This document shows, in pieces, positions 11,003-64,000 of a stretch of DNA of 64,000 nucleotides; position 1 is the stretch's first letter; the number at the start of each line of letters is the position of its first letter. The notes under the pieces are model-generated. The model searched no databases. It was given only the letters and a program-made list of their open reading frames with translations, and had not been told where the DNA came from. Origin of the DNA: Halorubrum trapanicum (GTDB lineage Archaea; Halobacteriota; Halobacteria; Halobacteriales; Haloferacaceae); contig NZ_AP017570.1 in NCBI RefSeq assembly GCF_002355655.1, positions 1-64,000 of the forward strand, in the 5' to 3' direction. A program made the position numbers and the translations under genes.

Positions 11003-13465
11003 CTATTCTGGATAGTATTCCAGCTGGTCACGGTCGTAACGGTCGAGTCGACCGAGGAGGTTCTCCCGGACGTTAGCCACAGAGTCGCTATCGAAGTGAA
11101 CGAAGGATTCGCCATCTTCCGTCTGTTCGTCGTTCAATTCGTCAATCACATAGCTATCGAACTTCCCCCGAATACGAGCATCGCGGAGGGCCCACCAGTA
11201 CTCGTTCAGGAGTTCATAGAGTTCGACCACTGCTCTGAACTCCATGAATACCAGTTTCTGGTTAGGAACTTCTCCATCAGTATAGGCTAAGATGTTCTCT
11301 TGAACGTGCCCAGCGATACGGAAGAAGTCATCCTCGTCGAAGTTTTGGGAGATGAGAAGATGTGCAGACAGACCGTTATCCCCCGTCTTGTTCTCGATAG
11401 CCTCCCGCTCGTCCTCGGATAGGATGTAACGCGTCGCCTGATCTTCTTCCTCCGAGCCGAGGTCGTATCCGTCTTCACGATGAGATAGCTTCGCGTCATA
11501 AGTCGCCACGTAGTAGTCACTCGGGTCTTTCTCTGGTACGATAAGCACTCCATCTGCTTCCCGCTCACCAATTCGTCCCCACCGCTCGGTCTGTGAGTAA
11601 AGTCTCTTCAGAAGGTAGAAGAGGTGCTTTTCGAAATAGCTGTCATTAGAAGGGTCGTAGATCTCTTCCAACTCATCCTTGTTTTCGTGCATCGGCCCCA
11701 GCTCGTCGACGAGTCCGTAGTATTCGCCTGCCTCTTCGTGAGCTTCACTTGCTTTACTGATGAGCCTGTCTTTGACACCGACAATCGCATTATGTAGGGC
11801 ATTCCCGACGAGCGCGTCGAGACTGTCTGCTGTGATAATGTCGTAGAGAGGAAGTCGACCGTATCCCTCGTCGTCTGCGGAGGCGGATTGCCCATAGGTT
11901 ACGTAGACGCACTGCAGGAGATAGTCGTTGACAGTTCCCGGACGCGGATGGTTCCCGTGAGGAACTACATCGACCTCTTGATACGAACTGGTTGTCCGCC
12001 GTCCTTCTGAGTCGGTCAACGAAAACGAGGTCTCGACTATTTTCCGATTAGCCATCTCCCGGTCTCCAACTTCCCATCCAGAGAAATCGCGTTTAGGATG
12101 TGTTGGTGAGATGTCGTCCAGCCGGTTCTGAATATACGTAGCAACACTTGTGTCGTTGACCTCAATCACGGTTTCCTCAACAGACTCAGAGAAGTCTTCT
12201 GCTCCACACTCCGTACACTCCGGTTCCGAAGCGGAGTTCTTCTCTGAACAGTGTGAACAGGTCTTGAATTCCTCGACTTCTGTGCTGACCAGCGCGTTAC
12301 CAGCTGCGTCTACATTACCTTCCAACACATTCTGCACCTCGTCACTCAACTCCTCGTAGTAATTCTCGTATGCCGTCCCTCGTTCAGCAAGGATTCGATT
12401 GAATAGGTACTCCTCGTCTTGTGATCCATACTCGTAGATTTTCTCGAATTCGATACCCGTTACAGCAGTAAAACCTTGCTTGAAGCGACTACGCTGTTCG
12501 TCTAGCTTATGATTGGTCTTGAGTTCGAATTCGACTCCGTCGACACCGTGAGTGAGTTCAACGCGGAACTTGCCCCCGTGGCGGATGTCTTTGAGGTATA
12601 GCTTGTTGACCTCAGAAATTCCGTCGAAGGATACAAGATTCTCGTTCCTCAGCGAGTGGATGTCCCTGTAGATCGATCGTTCGTTCTTTACCCGCAATCT
12701 AGAGTTCTCGGGGAGTTCGGATTCTGCAAAATCGACGCCCACTACACGGAACTCCTCATTATCTTCGACAAGGAGGTTCTCTACCTTGCCGACAATTGGT
12801 TCTTCTGCCGGTTCCGGCTGCCGCTCTTGGAGATTGTCATCTGAGCGTAACCGCGTCACGACTTTCTTCCGATCCGACTGGCGCCCTCGAACCTCGAATG
12901 ACTCTTCGTACTTCCTAACGACAACCGGTTTCGTCTGCAGATACCGTCGCGCGACGATTTCACCATCGTCTACCTCCTTTCCAATTGTAGGCTGCCCCGG
13001 CCACAAAAGGTCGAACTCGTTGTTGATAGTCTCCTGTACAAGGTTCTCTTCGTCATCAACTAAATCGAGTTCTGTTAGATTGTTAGCATCGCTTTCGAAT
13101 ACCTCTCCTTCCTGATTCTGAATCCAGATATACTCCACATACACTTCGTTCAGCAATCTTCTCGCGTCATCATCGTCAGCCGTCAGGACTCTTTGTTTAA
13201 ATTCGCTGATAGAGTCGTGTTTGTCCTCGATGACGCGTTTCTTCCGCCGAATAAATACCTCGAGAAGTGCACCCTCGAATGACTCGGGGCCTTCTGAATC
13301 CTCCTCTCGTCCATCTGTCCCACTCTGCGAATCTCTGTTCGAAGTCGAATTCCCTTCGTCCTCCTCGGTCTGAACCAATTCTCGCGCTTCCTCGTAATCA
13401 ACGTCAATCTTGTACCAAAACTCAGGTTCATCGAAGACGGGTGGGGTCGTAGCCTGTTGAGACAT
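11003..13465 (-). CDS. Zinc-ribbon protein with probable C-terminal PD-(D/E)XK nuclease domain
   Basis: An 820-residue acidic protein, first gene of a two-gene reverse-strand module with the OLD-like gene. Visible parts: an N-terminal acidic low-complexity stretch (residues about 30-60), a four-cysteine zinc ribbon near residues 400-420 (CSHC ... CTEC), and a C-terminal region with EADGVLIV followed by YVATYDAKLS near 655. The spacing of the Asp and DAK matches a PD-(D/E)XK nuclease core. The family is not recognised as a whole, and the catalytic assignment is by motif only. It is transcribed divergently from pglZ across a 155-bp gap. A DNA-cleaving effector or sensor working with the neighbouring ATPase is inferred. 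A recombination or repair role is the alternative. Confidence 0.7.
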   Translation of the reverse strand: MSQQATTPPVFDEPEFWYKIDVDYEEARELVQTEEDEGNSTSNRDSQSGTDGREEDSEGPESFEGALLEVFIRRKKRVIEDKHDSISEFKQRVLTADDDDARRLLNEVYVEYIWIQNQEGEVFESDANNLTELDLVDDEENLVQETINNEFDLLWPGQPTIGKEVDDGEIVARRYLQTKPVVVRKYEESFEVRGRQSDRKKVVTRLRSDDNLQERQPEPAEEPIVGKVENLLVEDNEEFRVVGVDFAESELPENSRLRVKNERSIYRDIHSLRNENLVSFDGISEVNKLYLKDIRHGGKFRVELTHGVDGVEFELKTNHKLDEQRSRFKQGFTAVTGIEFEKIYEYGSQDEEYLFNRILAERGTAYENYYEELSDEVQNVLEGNVDAAGNALVSTEVEEFKTCSHCSEKNSASEPECTECGAEDFSESVEETVIEVNDTSVATYIQNRLDDISPTHPKRDFSGWEVGDREMANRKIVETSFSLTDSEGRRTTSSYQEVDVVPHGNHPRPGTVNDYLLQCVYVTYGQSASADDEGYGRLPLYDIITADSLDALVGNALHNAIVGVKDRLISKASEAHEEAGEYYGLVDELGPMHENKDELEEIYDPSNDSYFEKHLFYLLKRLYSQTERWGRIGEREADGVLIVPEKDPSDYYVATYDAKLSHREDGYDLGSEEEDQATRYILSEDEREAIENKTGDNGLSAHLLISQNFDEDDFFRIAGHVQENILAYTDGEVPNQKLVFMEFRAVVELYELLNEYWWALRDARIRGKFDSYVIDELNDEQTEDGESFVHFDSDSVANVRENLLGRLDRYDRDQLEYYPE

Positions 13466-13620: not shown

Positions 13621-15816
13621 ATGCAAGCTAAACAGACCCTCCCCGACGCCGCAAAAGACACCATCAGAAGCGAGTTCGACCGGGCCGAGTCGTCAGACCC
13701 GATTGTCCTCTGGTGGGACGACGGAAACTACCTCGAGGACATCATCGAGCAGGCCTGCGACGAACTCGGCGTTCACCTGAAGGTCGCCGAGGAGACGCCG
13801 CTGGAACTCCGTGCCGATCCAATCGACGGCGAACAGGTCTGGTACGTTCCACACGTCAAGGAGCCCGAAGACGTTGAGGGCGACTACGACTGGTTCCGCG
13901 ACGTTGAGCACACGGGCGGCGAGGTGGAGCTGAGCATCGAAGACCTCACCGTCCACGCGTTCGAGCGTGGGCAACTCGATGCGTGGGAGCTAAAAACCGC
14001 GACGCAGGCGGACGACTCCGCAAAGCGCCGCGAGATCGCGCGGATTCTCCACGACCAGCTCACCGGCGGCCAGCTCCCGACGCTCGAACAGCTCCGCACG
14101 CAGATTGTCACCGGCGGCTACACCGACCCGGTCGCGTTCGTGCTGGAGAACGGTTGGGGCGACATCGACGACAGCCCCGGCACCATCGAGCAGATGCAGG
14201 ACTTGCTTACCAGCGAGGGCGTCGACGCGGTCGCCAGCGAGGATGAACCCGTGGGAATCGTCGCGGCGACGCGTCGGTGGGCCGTCGCTGAGTGGCTGAT
14301 CCACGCCGGCGCCGACGCTGAACGCTTCCCGAGGGAGTTCCGCGCCGAGACGGCCGGCAATCACGACCTCCCCGAGCTCAAGTCGCTTCTAAACAACACC
14401 ACCTCGGCCAGCCTCCTCGCCGACCGCTATCTCGGCGAGGCGATCTGGCACGACGTCGTCGCGGACGTTAATGACCCGTGGGAACTTGCGGACTGTATCG
14501 TCGACGCCGCGCTCGAACGTCGCCTCTGGGAGGAGTGGCACGCGTCGTTCGATGCTGGCGACTACGAGGTGTGTCTCGAGCGCGCCGAGGAGCGGCACGA
14601 CGCTCTGCTCGGAAGCGAGGACTTCCGCGGCACCTACCGCGGAGCCTACGGCCCGGACAGCCCGTGGACGGGGACGTGGGAGCAGGCCGCTGAGATTGCC
14701 CGCCTCGCGCACCAGATCCAGACGTGGGACGAGAGTGCCACCGATGATGTCGTCTCGCTGTACGCCGATCGGGACGACGGCACGTGGCAGATCGACAACG
14801 CAGTGCTCAACCTCGTCGTCGCGGGAGAGCCCGAAACCGATCTCCCCGACGATCATCCCGCGACCGTCGCGCTCGACGACCTCCGAACCCAACTCCAGTC
14901 GGAATACGTCGAGTACCTCGAAGACCTCGGTGACCTCGTCACTGATACCGTCGAAGCTGGCGCGCCCTTCGTCGACGAGGATCACTCCTACCAGTTCTTC
15001 ACCAAGGAGTCCGACGGTCTCGAAAGCGGCCAGACGATCGCGCTGTTCGTCATCGACGCCCTTCGGCTCGACCTTGCCCGTCGCCTCGCGGACGAATTGC
15101 GTGACTACGTGGCGACCCTCCCGTCCGATGCTCCCGAGTTTGCCATCGACGAAGACGTCTGGCTTGGGACGCTTCCCTCGGAGACCGAGTTCGGGAAGGC
15201 TGCGCTCACGCCGGGAGAAATACAGATGTTCGATGTCTCGCTAGTCGATGGCAAGTTACAGCCGATGCGAAACAACCGCGAAGTCGATACCAATCGGCGC
15301 AACTCGTTGCTGGACGGCGACGGGTGGACGGTCACTCGCCAGGAGGATGACGACGGCTGGCAGTCGACGCGTGTCGCCTACTTCAAGAACGACATCGACG
15401 ACATCGGCGAGAAGGAACTCAGCGACCTCGAGGCGATGCTGGCGCGACGCGTCGACTCGCTCGCGGAGTTCATCGGGACGAAACTCAAACAGGGTGAGTG
15501 GGATCAGGCGTACGTGCTGACCGACCACGGATTCGTCCTGCTTCCGGACAACGCGTCGCCGGAGAGAATTTCTCGGCCGACGGAAGCGTCCGACTCTGGG
15601 CGCCGGTGGATTGCCGGAGAGGATGTGGACGAGGATTCTCCCGGCGTGCTACTCGACTCCAGCTCCCGACTGGGGTACCTCGACGCCAACGTCAGCATCC
15701 TTGCGAGCCCACTCAAGCGGTTCAGAAAGCAGGGGCTCGGTGACGCGCGATTCTACCACGGCGGACTGCTCCCACAGGAGTTCGTGCTTGACTTCATCAG
15801 CATCACGCAGGGCTAA
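13621..15816 (+). CDS. pglZ: PglZ BREX phosphatase-superfamily protein
   Basis: A 731-residue PglZ, the signature BREX protein of the alkaline-phosphatase superfamily. The PglZ domain occupies the C-terminal half: LFVIDALRLDLARR near residue 474 carries the metal-binding Asp context, and TDHGFVLLP near 634 supplies the conserved Asp/His pair. The N-terminal half is helical and acidic. PglZ is required for BREX defence and modification; its substrate is not settled. The start MQAKQTLPDA at 13621 follows a likely promoter in the gap. The HsdR-N-like gene starts 21 bp after its stop and the helicase follows, so pglZ, nuclease and helicase probably form one transcription unit. Confidence 0.92.
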   Translation: MQAKQTLPDAAKDTIRSEFDRAESSDPIVLWWDDGNYLEDIIEQACDELGVHLKVAEETPLELRADPIDGEQVWYVPHVKEPEDVEGDYDWFRDVEHTGGEVELSIEDLTVHAFERGQLDAWELKTATQADDSAKRREIARILHDQLTGGQLPTLEQLRTQIVTGGYTDPVAFVLENGWGDIDDSPGTIEQMQDLLTSEGVDAVASEDEPVGIVAATRRWAVAEWLIHAGADAERFPREFRAETAGNHDLPELKSLLNNTTSASLLADRYLGEAIWHDVVADVNDPWELADCIVDAALERRLWEEWHASFDAGDYEVCLERAEERHDALLGSEDFRGTYRGAYGPDSPWTGTWEQAAEIARLAHQIQTWDESATDDVVSLYADRDDGTWQIDNAVLNLVVAGEPETDLPDDHPATVALDDLRTQLQSEYVEYLEDLGDLVTDTVEAGAPFVDEDHSYQFFTKESDGLESGQTIALFVIDALRLDLARRLADELRDYVATLPSDAPEFAIDEDVWLGTLPSETEFGKAALTPGEIQMFDVSLVDGKLQPMRNNREVDTNRRNSLLDGDGWTVTRQEDDDGWQSTRVAYFKNDIDDIGEKELSDLEAMLARRVDSLAEFIGTKLKQGEWDQAYVLTDHGFVLLPDNASPERISRPTEASDSGRRWIAGEDVDEDSPGVLLDSSSRLGYLDANVSILASPLKRFRKQGLGDARFYHGGLLPQEFVLDFISITQG

Positions 15817-29223: not shown

Positions 29224-29536
29224 TCACCTCTGTGGCTGCCCACCCTCTTCGAACCGCTCATCACTCGCGAAGAGCATCGCGACCCAGTGGACGCCCTCCG
29301 AACCGGATCAGCCCTCCGCCTGGTAGTGGGCGACAGACCGGGCCCATGGGTTGTACTCGCGGTGGGCCCAGAGCCGCGTCTGTCGACCGCCGTCGGCGGG
29401 CGTGAACCGGACGTGCGTCTGTTGCTGTCCGAGGAAGCCCGCCTCGCGGAACGGGAACGAGCCGACCTCGTAGATGGGCTCTCCAGTATCGTCGACGTCG
29501 AACTGGATGCTCGCGAGCCACGCCGGCCAGACGCGC
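29224..29536 (-). pseudogene. Degraded plasmid gene, C-terminal part, with internal stop
   Basis: The minus strand reads VWPAWLASIQFDVDD, then FREAGFLGQQQTHVRF and HREYNPWARSVAHYQAEG, then TGA, then in the same frame SGSEGVHWVAMLFASDE to a second TGA at 29224. The clean coding character on both sides of the first stop shows a nonsense mutation. The 5' part is missing: it is cut at about 29536, where the 51-bp element begins. Family not identified. Confidence 0.55.
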
Positions 29537-29541
29537 TGTAT

Positions 29542-29592
29542 CGACCGCGATCGGGTCAGAATATATCACTAATCGAGGATTCCAACAGAGCC
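29542..29592 (+). repeat. 51-bp dispersed element, divergent copy
   Basis: Ends in GATTCCAACAGAGCC exactly like the copy at 47099-47149; the left part is diverged. It lies at the broken 5' end of the decayed gene, consistent with a mobile-element end or its scar. Confidence 0.45.
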
Positions 29593-29650
29593 GCTCAAAC
29601 TACTATGATCTGTATAGAGCGAGCTCCACATCGTTGACTGGGTTTCTGGA

Positions 29651-31949: not shown

Positions 31950-32033
31950 ACTCGGACTTGGCAGACAGTTATTATAATAGGTGGGTGTATCAGGCGTCTA
32001 GCCTTAACGAAAGCCGGTACACAAGCCCACTTA

Positions 32034-32084
32034 CCGGCTGTTTCACCGCAGATGGAATGTAACCAAGAGGGATTCTACAGAGCC
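32034..32084 (+). repeat. 51-bp dispersed element (CCGGCTGTTTCA ... ACAGAGCC)
   Basis: Exactly 51 bp from CCGGCTG to AGAGCC, as in the copies at 44968 and 47099. The outer 12-15 bp are conserved and the centre is diverged. The right end resembles insertion-sequence termini (reverse complement GGCTCTGT...). It may be an IS/MITE remnant. Confidence 0.55.
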
Positions 32085-42813: not shown

Positions 42814-43161
42814 TCAGCGGAGCTCGTGGCGTTCGTCCGCGAAGCCGACCGTGACGAGGTACTCAAGGAACTCGTCGAACCGCTCGACGTCACTGGGCGT
42901 GTCGGTCGCAAGATGACGCGCCCATTCGATGGCCCACTGGAAGGCGGGATCCGTGCCGCCCTTGCCGTGAATGTACCACCATCGGGCTGCTTTCAGCACG
43001 ACCAGCGGATTCGTCGGCGGCTGCTCACCGGCGAGCCCACGGGTGATGGATTCGATTTCGTCGGGCACGTCGGCGGAATCGACCTCTGCTGATTGCGTGT
43101 TGTCGATATCGACGGGAATATCGTCGATCGAGACGTTGTCGGGACTCTGTTGTTGACTCAC
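42814..43161 (-). CDS. Hypothetical plasmid protein
   Basis: A 115-residue protein (MSQQQSPDNVSIDDIP). Acidic N-terminal half, then a helical domain with NPLVVLKAARWWYIHGKGG and FQWAIEWARHLATD. No catalytic or metal motif. It ends just upstream of leader copy 2 and has its own leader (copy 3) 30 bp before the start. Conserved-looking member of the minus-strand array; function unknown. Confidence 0.7.
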   Translation of the reverse strand: MSQQQSPDNVSIDDIPVDIDNTQSAEVDSADVPDEIESITRGLAGEQPPTNPLVVLKAARWWYIHGKGGTDPAFQWAIEWARHLATDTPSDVERFDEFLEYLVTVGFADERHELR

Positions 43162-43191
43162 TAGAAGTCACCTCGGAGAGCTTTCGAAGGA

Positions 43192-43221
43192 GCCCTCGCC
43201 CTCTCTGGGGGCACGAAAAAC
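43192..43221 (-). promoter_or_regulatory. Hairpin leader element, copy 3
   Basis: Minus strand: CTGTTTTTCGTGCCCCCAGA, then GAGGGCGAGGGC, 30 bp before the 115-residue gene. Upstream (43222-43444) is gene-free DNA with degenerate copies of the GGTTAGTACAG repeat tail. Confidence 0.6.
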
Positions 43222-43444
43222 AGGTCGCGAAGTCACGTCGGCGGGAGGTAGACGCTCTGTTCGCCGGCGTGCTTTTTTGAACTAGATTGGTTCCGTTGGA
43301 ATCCTCAGAAGTAACCGTTTCTATTGCGTTGCGGACAGTACAGGGGACTCACGTATCGGTTAGTACAGCGTGTGAACAGAGTGTTCCGATTACCAGAGTA
43401 CCCACACTAGTAGATTTTTTGTCGGTAAGGTGTTATACCCTGTT

Positions 43445-43879
43445 ATGCCCTCTACCCGTCGGAGCATTCTAATTGGAAGTAGCGTAGCTATTGGGGCCAT
43501 TGCGGGCTGTCAAAGCGTTAATCTCGGGGACCCCCGGGAAATTGATCTGACTCTCCGCAATTATACTGACAAGGAACAACCACTCCGACTTGAACTCCTT
43601 CGCGAAGACAAAACCGAGCTGGGTGAAGCGTCCGTACTTGATACCGAATACACTGTTCCAGCTCCGGGAGAAGGTGACGACTCTGCGGGAACCATACGCG
43701 AAACAGATGTAGTGCCTGAAAGACGATACATCGTTCGAGTCCTACTTAAAAACGGAAGGCACGAACAGTTCCATTCTCATTATTATCCCGACGGCTCAAC
43801 CGATGATGAGATAGATATTAGCATCTATCGAGACGAAACGACGGAGAATTTGTTCGTTGACTTCCGCGCGATCTCTTAG
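43445..43879 (+). CDS. Small secreted lipoprotein
   Basis: A protein of 144 residues from ATG 43445 (MPSTRRSILIGSSVAIGAI). Signal with arginines, a hydrophobic stretch and lipobox AIAGCQ, the acylated Cys near residue 24. The mature part is beta-rich (IDLTLRNYTDKEQPLRLEL ... YIVRVLLKNGRHEQFHSHYYPDG), an Ig-like impression. First of seven single-gene units with strictly alternating strands (43.4-47.1 kb). Moderate GC. Function unknown. Confidence 0.72.
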   Translation: MPSTRRSILIGSSVAIGAIAGCQSVNLGDPREIDLTLRNYTDKEQPLRLELLREDKTELGEASVLDTEYTVPAPGEGDDSAGTIRETDVVPERRYIVRVLLKNGRHEQFHSHYYPDGSTDDEIDISIYRDETTENLFVDFRAIS

Positions 43880-43900
43880 TCTGAGGTCTCATTCGTTGAG

Positions 43901-43975
43901 TTCGCAAGCCCGATATTACGGTTGATTCAGCCGCGTAACCCCGTAAGTATTAACCGTAGATCGGTCAGTACAGGG
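43901..43975 (+). repeat. 75-bp dispersed element F, copy 1
   Basis: Runs from TTCGCAAGCC to GGTCAGTACAGGG, with GGTTGATTCAGCCGC inside. Copies at 44447 and 46497 share this order. It lies between the 3' ends of two convergent genes. Confidence 0.6.
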
Positions 43976-43981
43976 AGCCTA

Positions 43982-44395
43982 TCAAGTAATTCGTCGAACT
44001 GTAGTTCCGATGCCAAAGCCGAGCGTCCCCACGATCGCCGCGGCAACTACGCTTCCGACGGTGGCATATCCGATGAGCCACAGTAGTCCCGGTTTGCCCA
44101 TAGTTAACGCGATACCACCGTAGTTTAGGATGACTCCAGCGACCCCGGCGAACACGAGCAACCAACTCACTCCGATTCCCCCATTGGAGTACGCTTGGAA
44201 CGCAACGAAACCCGTGAGCAGAACGGCGTACCCCTGCCACCACAGCACCGAATCAAGCAAGCGAACGTCCGCTATTCTTACCACCGCAAAGTAGAGGAGC
44301 GACGCAACAAAGAGGATTCCAGCGCCGATACTCCACTGTCTTGTTCGTTTTCGATCCTCACCCAGTAGGAGGGTTAGAGTGTCAACGGGAACCAT
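43982..44395 (-). CDS. Four-TM hypothetical membrane protein
   Basis: A 137-residue protein (MVPVDTLTLLLGEDRKRTRQ). Four to five hydrophobic segments near residues 22-42, 50-68, 75-92 and 103-130 (WLIGYATVGSVVAAAIVGTL). Not recognised. It stands alone on the minus strand between F elements in the alternating-strand zone. Confidence 0.65.
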   Translation of the reverse strand: MVPVDTLTLLLGEDRKRTRQWSIGAGILFVASLLYFAVVRIADVRLLDSVLWWQGYAVLLTGFVAFQAYSNGGIGVSWLLVFAGVAGVILNYGGIALTMGKPGLLWLIGYATVGSVVAAAIVGTLGFGIGTTVRRIT

Positions 44396-44446
44396 ACACA
44401 GTCCGCGTTTTACGCCTTGAAAACTAAGAAATTACGATGTGACTGA

Positions 44447-44521
44447 TTCGCAAGCGCAATCTTGCGGTTGATTCAGCCGCACAATCCCAGAAGCATCGAC
44501 CATAGGTCGTTCAGTACAGGG
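44447..44521 (+). repeat. 75-bp dispersed element F, copy 2
   Basis: Same length as copy 1: TTCGCAAGCG ... GGTTGATTCAGCCGC ... CGTTCAGTACAGG. An extra tail repeat, ATCGTTCAGTACAAG, follows at about 44531. Confidence 0.6.
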
Positions 44522-44618
44522 TAATCACGAATCGTTCAGTACAAGAGATTCAATAATACCTCAGCACTTGCTTTACGGGACAACATTCAACAACAGTTAC
44601 CTCTATTGTAAATTATAT

Positions 44619-44909
44619 ATGAACCGAATGGCCCTCCTCGGTATCGGTTTACTCGTTGTCGGAGTTAGTATCTCCTTCGCACTATTGATGTCATTCCCCA
44701 GTATGATGTTCGGGGGTTGTACGGATGTCGGCGTTCCAGAGGGCGAGGGACAGGGAGTGGACATAATCGGTGTGGAGGATGGCAATCTCCTGTACACACC
44801 CGATGGGGCGAACGAATGTAGTATTCCACTTCCAGCGATCCTCACTCCGATCGGAGTTATCGCTGTCGGAGCCGGATTAGTCCTATCTCCGAAGGTGACA
44901 GGGAACTAA
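44619..44909 (+). CDS. Small two-TM protein with extracytoplasmic loop
   Basis: A protein of 96 residues from ATG 44619 (MNRMALLGIGLLVVGVSISF). Two hydrophobic helices (about 4-25 and 72-90) flank a loop with two cysteines (FGGCTDVG and ANECSIP) that could form a disulphide. A TTATATAT box just upstream is part of the start region. Unknown function; third unit of the alternating zone. Confidence 0.6.
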   Translation: MNRMALLGIGLLVVGVSISFALLMSFPSMMFGGCTDVGVPEGEGQGVDIIGVEDGNLLYTPDGANECSIPLPAILTPIGVIAVGAGLVLSPKVTGN

Positions 44910-44967
44910 ACGTTGAACTACACAAAGTAGGGGGCTCACGGATCGGTTATTACGCAACTCTCATCCA

Positions 44968-45018
44968 CCGGCTGTTTCAAATGAGAATATGTCTGAAGAA
45001 GGGGATTTCAACAGATCC
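44968..45018 (+). repeat. 51-bp dispersed element, copy at 45.0 kb
   Basis: CCGGCTGTTTCA ... GATTTCAACAGATCC, exactly 51 bp; internal AGAATATGT matches the copy at 47099. It lies between convergent gene ends. Confidence 0.6.
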
Positions 45019-45026
45019 TTATATTT

Positions 45027-45488
45027 CTATTTTTCCTCAGATACGACACTTGATTGGCTCGGGCCAAATCGCCGTAAAGCAAACGCAACAGTAGATGATA
45101 CAATCCCTATTGGGACGCCATACAACATTGCTCCCCCCACGCCGGTTAAAAGTCCATAGTCAGGTTGAGGGTGATTAAGCGAGATGACACTATACAGGGC
45201 AAAGCCGCTTATGACGATCACGGCGACGGCGAGACTCACGAGTATTCCGTCGTTGCGATATGTGTGTATCCCTGCCAGAATAATCGCTGATACCGTGACT
45301 CCAAGCGGGCTCATAAGCAAACCAAATGAGTTTCCCATACCGGAATTTCCAACAAGATAGAGTTGACCGAAGAACACGGCCATGAGAATGACCGAGTAGC
45401 CGAGATACCGAAGCGATAGGTTCAACGACTTCCCGAGAAGAAGCGATTCTAGCCGTGAGTCCATACACTGTGCTGACTCACTGGTCAT
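45027..45488 (-). CDS. Four-TM hypothetical membrane protein
   Basis: A 153-residue protein (MTSESAQCMDSRLESLLLGK). Hydrophobic segments near residues 28-46, 55-73, 85-103 and 115-137. Basic C-terminal turn (ALRRFG). No family recognised. Fourth unit of the alternating zone; its stop lies 9 bp from the 51-bp element. Confidence 0.62.
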   Translation of the reverse strand: MTSESAQCMDSRLESLLLGKSLNLSLRYLGYSVILMAVFFGQLYLVGNSGMGNSFGLLMSPLGVTVSAIILAGIHTYRNDGILVSLAVAVIVISGFALYSVISLNHPQPDYGLLTGVGGAMLYGVPIGIVSSTVAFALRRFGPSQSSVVSEEK

Positions 45489-45576
45489 ATAAGCTTTTCA
45501 CCGAGAAGGCTTGCGGGAAACTTGAAATGGAAACTTAGCCGGTTGTTAGAAGCCCCCAAGGCATATATCGAATCCG

Positions 45577-45921
45577 ATGATTTCGTACGTAATGACTGAT
45601 TTCACAGGATATCTGCTAGGCATAAGAGATAAGATCGTTAAAAAACGAGGCGGGCAGGTCAGCTATGTCATTCTGTCTGCTATTGGTGTAATCTTGTTTG
45701 CGTTAACATTCAGATCAGTTAACTTCAACGCGTCCTCAATAGTTACATTGTTCCCGTTTCTGGTCAGCTTAGCTTTCCTTTCCTACGGATTATCTGGTTT
45801 TGTACCAGCCAAGAACAAGAATACAATATTATTGCTGCGTTCAGGTGTTGTGGTTATAGCCATTGCCGCGATTGGCTTCGTTACATTATTTGTCCTATTT
45901 GCGCTTGGGAATACTCCTTGA
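45577..45921 (+). CDS. Three-TM hypothetical membrane protein, low GC
   Basis: Up to 114 residues; ATG 45577 or ATG 45592 (MTDFTGYLLGIRDKIVKKRG). Hydrophobic segments near 29-46, 53-75 and 86-110. Codon use is markedly AT-richer than in its neighbours. No family recognised. Confidence 0.6.
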   Translation: MISYVMTDFTGYLLGIRDKIVKKRGGQVSYVILSAIGVILFALTFRSVNFNASSIVTLFPFLVSLAFLSYGLSGFVPAKNKNTILLLRSGVVVIAIAAIGFVTLFVLFALGNTP

Positions 45922-45956
45922 GTTAGATTTGGTGCCTAGTGCTTCACAGTCAGCTT

Positions 45957-46415
45957 TCAGTTCCCAGTCACCGTGATGGCATATTCGTAGTCACGTGAGT
46001 TCCGATCGCCGATCGTTTCCCTAACGCTGAAACCGTATTCGTAAGTGCCGGTCTCGGCATCAGGATCAACTTGAACCGGCACATCTACCGTCACACGTGT
46101 ACAGTCATCCCATATCCATATTGGCGGGCACGAGTCCAGTTGAGCATCTATCGCTGGTGAGGTGTTGACATCCCCAAATCTGACTGGCGCATCCGTACCG
46201 CATGAATACAACCGTGAGTCGAACGAGAACCCCGTAATGCCGTCTACCTGTATCTCGAAGGATGCCGAGTCGCCCGGTGTGAGTTCCAATTCCTCCACTT
46301 GGACATTCGGTGGCCAGGTATTCTCTCCCGAACAAGACGGACCGCTCCCGAGGCATCCGCCCAAAGCTACGGATGTTGTGGGTACGGTTCCGGCGAGGAA
46401 TTGGCGTCTTTTCAT
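45957..46415 (-). CDS. Small secreted lipoprotein, Cys-rich
   Basis: A protein of 152 residues from ATG 46415 (MKRRQFLAGTVPTTSVALGG). Twin-arginine KRRQF, short hydrophobic stretch, lipobox LGGC. The mature beta-rich domain has further cysteines (PSCSGEN, LYSCGTD, DSCPPIW, DDCTRV), probably disulphide-bonded outside the cell. Sixth unit of the alternating zone. Confidence 0.7.
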   Translation of the reverse strand: MKRRQFLAGTVPTTSVALGGCLGSGPSCSGENTWPPNVQVEELELTPGDSASFEIQVDGITGFSFDSRLYSCGTDAPVRFGDVNTSPAIDAQLDSCPPIWIWDDCTRVTVDVPVQVDPDAETGTYEYGFSVRETIGDRNSRDYEYAITVTGN

Positions 46416-46496
46416 TGGTTCAGAATGACTTAACTGAGAATAAGTGTTTTCGGGTGAAATATAATTCCAAAACAAACAGGTACTCTATGACCGCGT

Positions 46497-46576
46497 TCAA
46501 TAAGCAAGTGCGATCTTGCGGGTGATTCAGGCGCGCAACCCCGCGGAAGTATCGACCGTAGATCGGTCAGTACAGG
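46497..46576 (+). repeat. Dispersed element F, copy 3 (about 80 bp)
   Basis: TTCAATAAGCAAGTGCG, then TGATTCAGGCGCGCAACCCC and GATCGGTCAGTACAGG; slightly longer and more diverged than copies 1 and 2. Confidence 0.55.
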
Positions 46577-46670
46577 TGGTGCAATTACCAACGACGCCCA
46601 GCTCAACTGAATCACCGGAACAAGGACAAGTAGTCAAAAAGCCTATTATCACTACTATGTGGTTTCAGGT

Positions 46671-47084
46671 ATGTCCTTGAAGCGGCGAGTCATTCTCTTG
46701 GGCGGTGCGGCAACGGTCGGATTCGGGGCTCTTGGTTACTATGGGATAACGAGGTGCGACGAGGTCGCCTGTTTTTCTTTTGAGTTTCAAGGTGCTGACC
46801 ATGTGGCTAATAGATTAGATGTTCAGCATACGGGTGGCCAGGAGAGCCTACAAGCGGGTGATGTGTACTTCCGCGAGGTTGTTGTTGATTGGGAGTCCCG
46901 AGAGACAGACACCATCGCATGGTCTGAGTTAGATGATGAGATGGAGCCAAGCGACACAATTGATGGCGATGAAATACGGCTCCAACTCTTGTGGGAAACG
47001 AACGTTGTGGAAATCCTGTGGCGGCAGGAGGGTGGGGAGACACTCATCGGAGCATGGGTTGACGAAGACGACGATGCTAGATAG
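46671..47084 (+). CDS. Type IV pilin-like exported protein
   Basis: A protein of 137 residues from ATG 46671 (MSLKRRVILLGGAATVGFGA). N-terminal hydrophobic anchor after KRR. The mature part has VQHTGGQESLQAGDVYF ... DTIDGDEIRLQLLW ... VVEILWRQEGGETLIG. This is the pattern of archaeal type IV pilin-like C-terminal domains (HTGG, then GD, then a W-containing last strand). It lacks a clear class III prepilin peptidase site, so a membrane-anchored relative is possible. Last unit of the alternating zone. Confidence 0.62.
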   Translation: MSLKRRVILLGGAATVGFGALGYYGITRCDEVACFSFEFQGADHVANRLDVQHTGGQESLQAGDVYFREVVVDWESRETDTIAWSELDDEMEPSDTIDGDEIRLQLLWETNVVEILWRQEGGETLIGAWVDEDDDAR

Positions 47085-47098
47085 GCAGCCCCCATCGA

Positions 47099-47149
47099 CC
47101 GGCTGTTTCAGGTGATAATATGTTTGAAGGGTGAGATTCCAACAGAGCC
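47099..47149 (+). repeat. 51-bp dispersed element, copy at 47.1 kb
   Basis: CCGGCTGTTTCAGG ... GATTCCAACAGAGCC, exactly 51 bp, followed 4 bp later by palindrome copy 8. The two repeat families abut here and lie close together at 32.1 kb. Confidence 0.6.
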
Positions 47150-47203: not shown

Positions 47204-47425
47204 TCATTTCTTATCCTCACGTAGCTCTTCAGCCTTCCACTTGAGCCGGCGCAGGATCTGTGTCCGATTCTGGTGGGCGTTCTCATAGGCAACACACTCT
47301 TGGAGGGTTTCCATATCGGGAATCGTCGCAATACCGGCCTTGACCAATCGGTAATTCGGAGCTTCAAGACGCTTCTCAGGTGGAAATTCGTCGTCGCTCC
47401 CGTCGCTAATCGTGGACTGTTCCAT
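47204..47425 (-). CDS. Small helical plasmid protein
   Basis: A 73-residue protein (MEQSTISDGSDDEFPPEKRL). Its C-terminal half is a charged helix (NAHQNRTQILRRLKWKAEEL). Small DNA-binding or adaptor protein is possible; not recognised. Leader copy 4 begins 8 bp before the start. Confidence 0.6.
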   Translation of the reverse strand: MEQSTISDGSDDEFPPEKRLEAPNYRLVKAGIATIPDMETLQECVAYENAHQNRTQILRRLKWKAEELREDKK

Positions 47426-63940: not shown

Positions 63941-63991
63941 GGCTCCGTTGAAACTCTTTCAGTTAGATATGAATCGTGGTGAAACAGTTGT
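63941..63991 (-). repeat. 51-bp dispersed element, inverted copy
   Basis: GGCTCCGTTGAAACTC ... GTGGTGAAACAGTTG is the reverse complement of the 51-bp element, at the same length. Nothing else is seen between 63870 and 64000. Confidence 0.5.
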
Positions 63992-64000
63992 TCAGTAGTT

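Follow-up and report, generated by a model that had tools for sequence, protein, structure and literature searches.

Passenger genes of IS5-type transposons form a probable mosaic array in a variable haloarchaeal plasmid slot

The first 64,000 nucleotides of contig NZ_AP017570.1 of Halorubrum trapanicum (hereafter the window; part of the 141.5-kb contig C2 in a genome of 3.08 Mb and three contigs) contain seven small genes, g1 to g7, which alternate strictly in strand (+ - + - + - +) and are separated in part by repeated elements, and the locus raises the question of how such a row was assembled and whether its strand pattern has a meaning. A sequence-only reading had listed three copies of a repeat, F, and two of a 51-bp element in the gaps; the strands and both counts were confirmed, the latter element (here D) being really about 65 bp long, and a further element, E, at the left end was absent from that list. 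The interval is very probably a mosaic array of passenger genes from non-autonomous transposons of the IS5 family, lodged in a variable slot of haloarchaeal plasmids. Other loci used in the comparison are cited by L numbers, and coordinates in the window are collected in Table 1.

According to profile searches, the terminus of D, GGATTTCAACAGAGCC, matches the start of E (GGCTCTGTTGAAATCCTCAG...GCGGTCAATACAG) in reverse complement, and the inverted repeat common to both elements is GGCTCTGTTGAAATCC. E and D bound many passenger-carrying elements of haloarchaea, usually without a transposase, and the outer part of E also starts an insertion sequence (IS) encoding a 273-aa IS5-family transposase (NF033579, E-value 5.9e-65, above the cut-off; Pfam DDE_Tnp_1), the transposase-bearing copies of which start with the GGCTCTGTTGAAATCC of E and finish in D. 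Matching 8-bp flanks were found in 26 of 135 ordered E-D pairs from the same locus (22 perfect), against 10 of 12,904 (0.08%) E-D pairings across loci, which served as the control. The units flanked by such target-site duplications (TSDs) were 0.3-5.6 kb long and contained none to five predicted genes, which faced either direction relative to the ends, and the 273-aa transposase gene was missing in most of them. E and D are shown by these sequence comparisons to bound apparently mobile units that produce 8-bp target duplications. Palindrome-associated transposable elements (PATEs) and the IS200-IS605 group are recognized by having neither inverted repeats nor duplications (PMC3119063), and both are present here. 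The motif CAGTACAG alone was rejected as a genome-wide marker, being uninformative (48 matches vs 31 in the reversed control).

A transposase-bearing copy with a TSD (GCACTTGG) was found on contig C3 of the same genome (L134) and is a possible source of transposase within the same cell. This TSD-flanked element (L134 7688-9684; C3, ~70.69-72.68 kb) comprises the transposase gene, a gene for a 169-aa protein, half an F and a small gene. The same contig also holds a 3.4-kb E-D element with a perfect TSD (AAATTCTC; L145 7115-10553), which is without a transposase and contains three predicted genes (118, 424 and 360 aa).

Relatives of the seven genes were found beside the same elements elsewhere. 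The sibling of g3 at L208 is a complete E-gene-D transposon of 531 bp (TSD GTTTCTGA), that of g4 on the chromosome of the same strain (C1, ~964.3 kb) a complete transposon of 705 bp (TSD ATTTATAG/ATTTATAA), and that of g6 in another genus (L171) likewise a complete transposon of 705 bp (TSD ACTGAGTG), and close siblings of g1, g2, g5 and g7 elsewhere adjoin E, F or D. Because most homologues below ~65-70% identity were unflanked by E, F or D, the mobile forms are regarded as subsets of wider families. The sequence-only reading had further suggested testing whether F elements define excisable cassettes, and had offered convergent gene pairs, imported with their repeats, as one possibility. The mobile unit is not defined by F alone, being bounded by E and D, with F as an internal separator and place of recombination; the idea of imported pairs is unsupported, because units elsewhere often hold a single gene. 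F was also considered as a transposon end paired with D, as the spacing from F to D suggested, and was rejected on the grounds that F has no inverted repeat and that TSD-flanked units containing F start with E or with a transposase-bearing left end.

The surroundings of the array were compared by a search of plasmid DNA: over 100 records from plasmids of haloarchaea shared the flanks (42814-43268 and from ~47200), and the interior was not conserved. Only ~120 bp separate the two flanking genes in NZ_CP119795 and NZ_CP126160, which represent the empty slot, and in other plasmids a DUF6610 gene occupies it. Of the 56 loci in which both flanks were present, 5 had a gap of 132-144 bp, 31 had one of ~1.2 kb, which corresponds in length to the DUF6610 state, and the remainder reached up to 7.5 kb; the gap of the window is 4,042 bp. 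Since the window retains the last codons of the DUF6610 gene, the array appears to have replaced this gene. The idea of a collecting site for cassettes, put forward in the sequence-only reading, is borne out by this variable slot, by the repeat-flanked siblings of all seven genes and by the three independent mobile families among them.

The same slot of Halorubrum saccharovorum DSM 1137 (L009, L116) carries a 12-kb array. The blocks E-g1-F1, D-g4 and g6-F are 92-97% identical in DNA between the two plasmids, and g7-D is also present in H. saccharovorum (g7 protein 98% identical). These four common blocks are collinear with different genes between them, so that the observation named in the sequence-only reading as its refutation, an unchanged row of all seven genes in relatives, was not made in the closest relative, and the two arrays differ by whole blocks ending at separators. 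F3 together with its left flank (g6) matches one F of the H. saccharovorum array (at 11980), and the right half of F3 (with the CGCGGAAG variant) together with its right flank (g7) matches another (at 14958). One F-F crossover would suffice to convert between the two arrangements, with removal of the intervening genes, and this apparent recombination in F3 is the clearest mechanistic event observed. Just upstream of g7, H. saccharovorum has a transposase copy within a duplication of CAAAAAGC, a target which is uninterrupted in the window. The H. saccharovorum array (L116 5340-17330) also contains a duplicate of the left slot end, a predicted helix-turn-helix-like regulator and two genes for long lipoprotein-like products (425 and 435 aa).

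Highly similar flanks across many genera and slot contents that vary by plasmid, along with the frequent position of D between convergent genes, would also suit a stable accessory island, gathered once and spread as a block by homologous recombination at the plasmid flanks, with the repeats as regulatory or terminator sequences. We regard this as extremely improbable: it is contradicted by the occurrence of the same genes elsewhere, on chromosomes too, with the same ends and 8-bp duplications, by the recombinant F3, and by the inverted repeats which E and D share with the transposase element.

Table 1. Coordinates of elements, genes and slot borders in the window
Feature	Position	Strand	Description	Evidence or relatives
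E	43289-43344	+	Left transposon end; inverted repeat GGTTCCGTTGGAATCC, terminal hinge GGACAGTACAG	Profile match, E-value 2e-10
F1	43900-43978	+	Internal separator	
F2	44446-44523	+	Internal separator	
F3	46500-46579	+	Separator; recombinant of two H. saccharovorum F copies	Alignment
D1	44954-45018	+	Right transposon end; '51-bp element' of the sequence-only reading, copy 1	
D2	47085-47149	+	Right transposon end; final array element	
Empty target CAAAAAGC	46635-46642	+		Duplicated around IS5-family insertion in H. saccharovorum
Left slot border	42814-43161	-	Conserved backbone gene, 115 aa	90-97% identity across many plasmids of haloarchaea
Right slot border	47204-47425	-	Conserved backbone gene, 73 aa	
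DUF6610 remnant	43233-43268	-	3' end of gene (AGEQSVYLPPT*)	Matches C-terminus of DUF6610 protein in L002 slot
g1	43445-43879	+	Passenger gene, lipoprotein-like, 144 aa	97% identical protein in H. saccharovorum array
g2	43982-44395	-	Passenger gene, membrane protein, 137 aa	Seven copies: E/F at left, F/D at right
g3	44619-44909	+	Passenger gene, small membrane protein, 96 aa	Sibling L208, stand-alone transposon
g4	45027-45464	-	Passenger gene, membrane protein, 145 aa	Stand-alone transposon sibling on own chromosome
g5	45592-45921	+	Passenger gene, membrane protein, 109 aa	Siblings adjoin E, F or D
g6	45957-46415	-	Passenger gene, lipoprotein, 152 aa	Sibling L171, stand-alone transposon
g7	46671-47084	+	Passenger gene, 137 aa	Close siblings adjoin D in several genomes

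Where the cassettes join E, F or D, the borders are sharp and lie around a GGTCARTAC hinge. On the left side of g2, F was found in four copies and E in three (border GGTCARTACAGGGAGCCTATC), and on its right side F in two and D in five (border GTGACTGATTCGC); the separators varied in the same manner at g6 and g4, and around all three genes they stood at constant distance. In nearly all cases the separators near a given gene held one orientation relative to that gene. TCARTAC (one mismatch at most) stood at the end of 73 of 74 E elements, a count partly built into the profile, and a similar hinge, in a degenerate form, preceded D in 44 of 99 cases (1 of 99 in the control stretch). The hinge was also found directly after the stop codon of the transposase, and alignment of inner E with the transposase gene was limited to the 10-bp hinge region, which gives no more than a hint that inner E is a remnant of that gene. 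E was joined directly to D at six loci (L126 8170-8290, L218, L219, L268, L282 and L283), forming elements of ~120-146 bp that resemble miniature inverted-repeat transposable elements (MITEs); because a TSD was found around none of the six, these may be recombination (deletion) products.

Several of these features, namely one gene with different separators at sharp hinge borders, the excess of hinge-like sequence to the right of passengers and the elements with E joined to D and one hinge, would be expected of an integron-like system in which a dedicated site-specific recombinase inserts and swaps cassettes between E, F and D at a site with GGTCARTAC as its core, the IS5 transposase moving the platform only. 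We consider such a system unlikely, as the right hinge is degenerate, the gene-free E-D elements may be deletion products, the crossover in F3 lies inside F and not at the hinge, and F is without a covarying fold (18 sequences, no pair changed on both sides, covariation term +0.14). No recombinase or integrase was recognized by reading among the predicted genes of the window array or the sister array, no dedicated recombinase search having been made. If such a system nevertheless existed, it would be an archaeal counterpart of integrons, built on IS5-family ends, class-wide in distribution, and inserting and swapping cassettes of selected small surface proteins at the hinge. A folded structure of F, as DNA or as RNA, was likewise rejected, the hairpins seen by eye in single copies being unsupported by covariation.

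Half an F (model positions 28-80) always followed the gene for the 169-aa protein (L121, L126, L134 and L138), suggesting that the two may travel together. Upstream of F at L115, L123, L127 and L131, a shared sequence (..CTCTGAACTGGTAGA..GGTGGTCA) ended at the hinge and is a possible further type of separator. A 32-bp direct repeat (CAGTACAGGG..CTCACG.ATCGGTTAGTACA) was located on either side of g3 (44512-44543 and 44923-44954), with a third copy beginning at 43336, and might represent a second, very small hinge unit (~25 bp). Additional E-like and D-like ends lie in the window (29536-29594, -; 32029-32084, +; 63941-63994, -), so that this plasmid carries further insertions of the family.

For the array of transposon passengers, the following course is proposed. 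The basic unit consists of E (~55 bp, starting GGCTCTGTTGAAATCC), a hinge (GGTCARTACAG), a single small gene or a few of them, a second hinge (TCAATACGCA) and D (~65 bp, ending GGATTTCAACAGAGCC), and would be moved in trans by transposase from intact copies, one of which is on another contig of the same genome. Such units may have built up in the slot by repeated insertion, replacing the DUF6610 gene, and homologous recombination between F copies, and probably between D and E copies too, would then delete, duplicate and re-pair the cassettes. Several points weigh against this course. No target duplication surrounds the window array (flanks ACTAGATT at E vs TTATATTT at D1 and TGCGTTAA at D2), so that its own insertion history is blurred; the g4/g5 and g5/g6 joints are without a separator; some junctions share only the ~10-bp hinge, little sequence for ordinary homologous recombination to act on; and movement of the units was not directly observed.

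The strand alternation would, on the same proposal, be a by-product of which cassettes became neighbours. The sequence-only reading had held that random insertion would rarely give strict alternation, and this argument did not survive: for random strands P is 2/128, and the row was picked from a 64-kb window with dozens of genes. The H. saccharovorum array showed 7 changes of orientation over its 12 pairs of neighbours, so that strict alternation is not a feature of the locus, and another array showed 12 over 18. Alternation could still have been selected or built by the mechanism, for instance if the separators served as shared promoters or terminators that tolerate only + - + -, and the frequent position of D between convergent genes and that of F2 and F3 between divergent genes agree with this; it is nevertheless very unlikely, because F1 stands between convergent genes, the sister array does not alternate and single-gene units carry their genes in either orientation. 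Alternation as a built-in feature was rejected on the same non-alternating array and on the two orientations of passengers in TSD-flanked elements. All three F copies of the window share one orientation. The alternation is thus probably due to chance and the repeats are beyond chance, and a striking strand pattern in an array of this kind need not carry meaning.

The lipoprotein-like starts of g1 and g6 and the small membrane proteins of g2, g3, g4 and g5 were judged by reading the sequences. No significant match to Pfam, NCBIfam, PADLOC or PHROGs was obtained for any of the seven proteins, and a role in defence or in phages was rejected for want of a PADLOC match and of a meaningful PHROGs match. 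The structure model of g6 was beta-rich with a mean predicted local distance difference test score (pLDDT) of 58 and was not used for fold searches. In the families of g2, g3, g4 and g6, the median ratio of non-synonymous to synonymous substitution rates (dN/dS) was 0.22-0.35 with zero internal stops, and since the frames are intact and these medians low, the passengers of these four families are taken to be under purifying selection. The data indicate that passengers are probably selected proteins, mostly membrane or lipoprotein-like.

E/D ends were detected in 193 of the 391 Halobacteria genomes sampled, which represent 57 of 86 genera, and in 51 of 52 genomes from the genus of the window. 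F had a smaller range, being present in 21 of the 170 genomes from the family, of which 17 belong to that genus. The elements constitute a class-wide family of IS5-type passenger transposons, the cassettes of which are combined into mosaic arrays. Gene exchange among haloarchaea is known to be heavy, while the packaging and movement of single accessory genes are poorly described; E/D ends with 8-bp duplications provide a simple sequence handle by which mobile single genes of archaea can be catalogued, and make an archaeal gene-cassette platform a testable idea.

In the open-licence literature, no report was found of this E/D end pair, of its many passengers or of such arrays. In the terms of PMC3129680, an IS derivative that carries other genes and lacks a transposase is a mobile insertion cassette (MIC), and a transporter IS is an IS with passengers. 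In these, too, IS ends surround genes not involved in transposition, the transposase being absent (MICs) or present (transporter ISs), whereas here one end pair serves many passengers, with an internal hinge, a third separator (F) and long arrays. Among haloarchaeal MITEs, the ISH2-type HqIRS32 was reported as the sole MITE of Haloquadratum with a likely protein-coding open reading frame (ORF) (PMC3119063); compared by organisation, these MITEs share with the present elements the missing transposase, inverted ends, target duplications and, in HqIRS32, a coding ORF, but the ISH2-type MITE has one ORF and the passengers here are diverse and exchangeable. Tn3-derived inverted-repeat miniature elements (TIMEs) and mosaic non-autonomous transposons of the Tn3 family in bacteria, in which the repeats measure 38 bp and the duplications 5 or 6 bp (PMC4133298), similarly have miniature ends that mobilise other DNA and form mosaics, and differ from the IS5 family, 8-bp duplications, archaeal hosts and small single-gene cassettes found here. 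Integron arrays likewise hold exchangeable, mostly single-gene cassettes between repeated sites, whereas the present arrays have both gene orientations, a separator without a conserved fold, and transposon ends with a DDE-type transposase. The closest known kinds are MICs and ORF-bearing MITEs, and beside them the modular array and the hinge look new.

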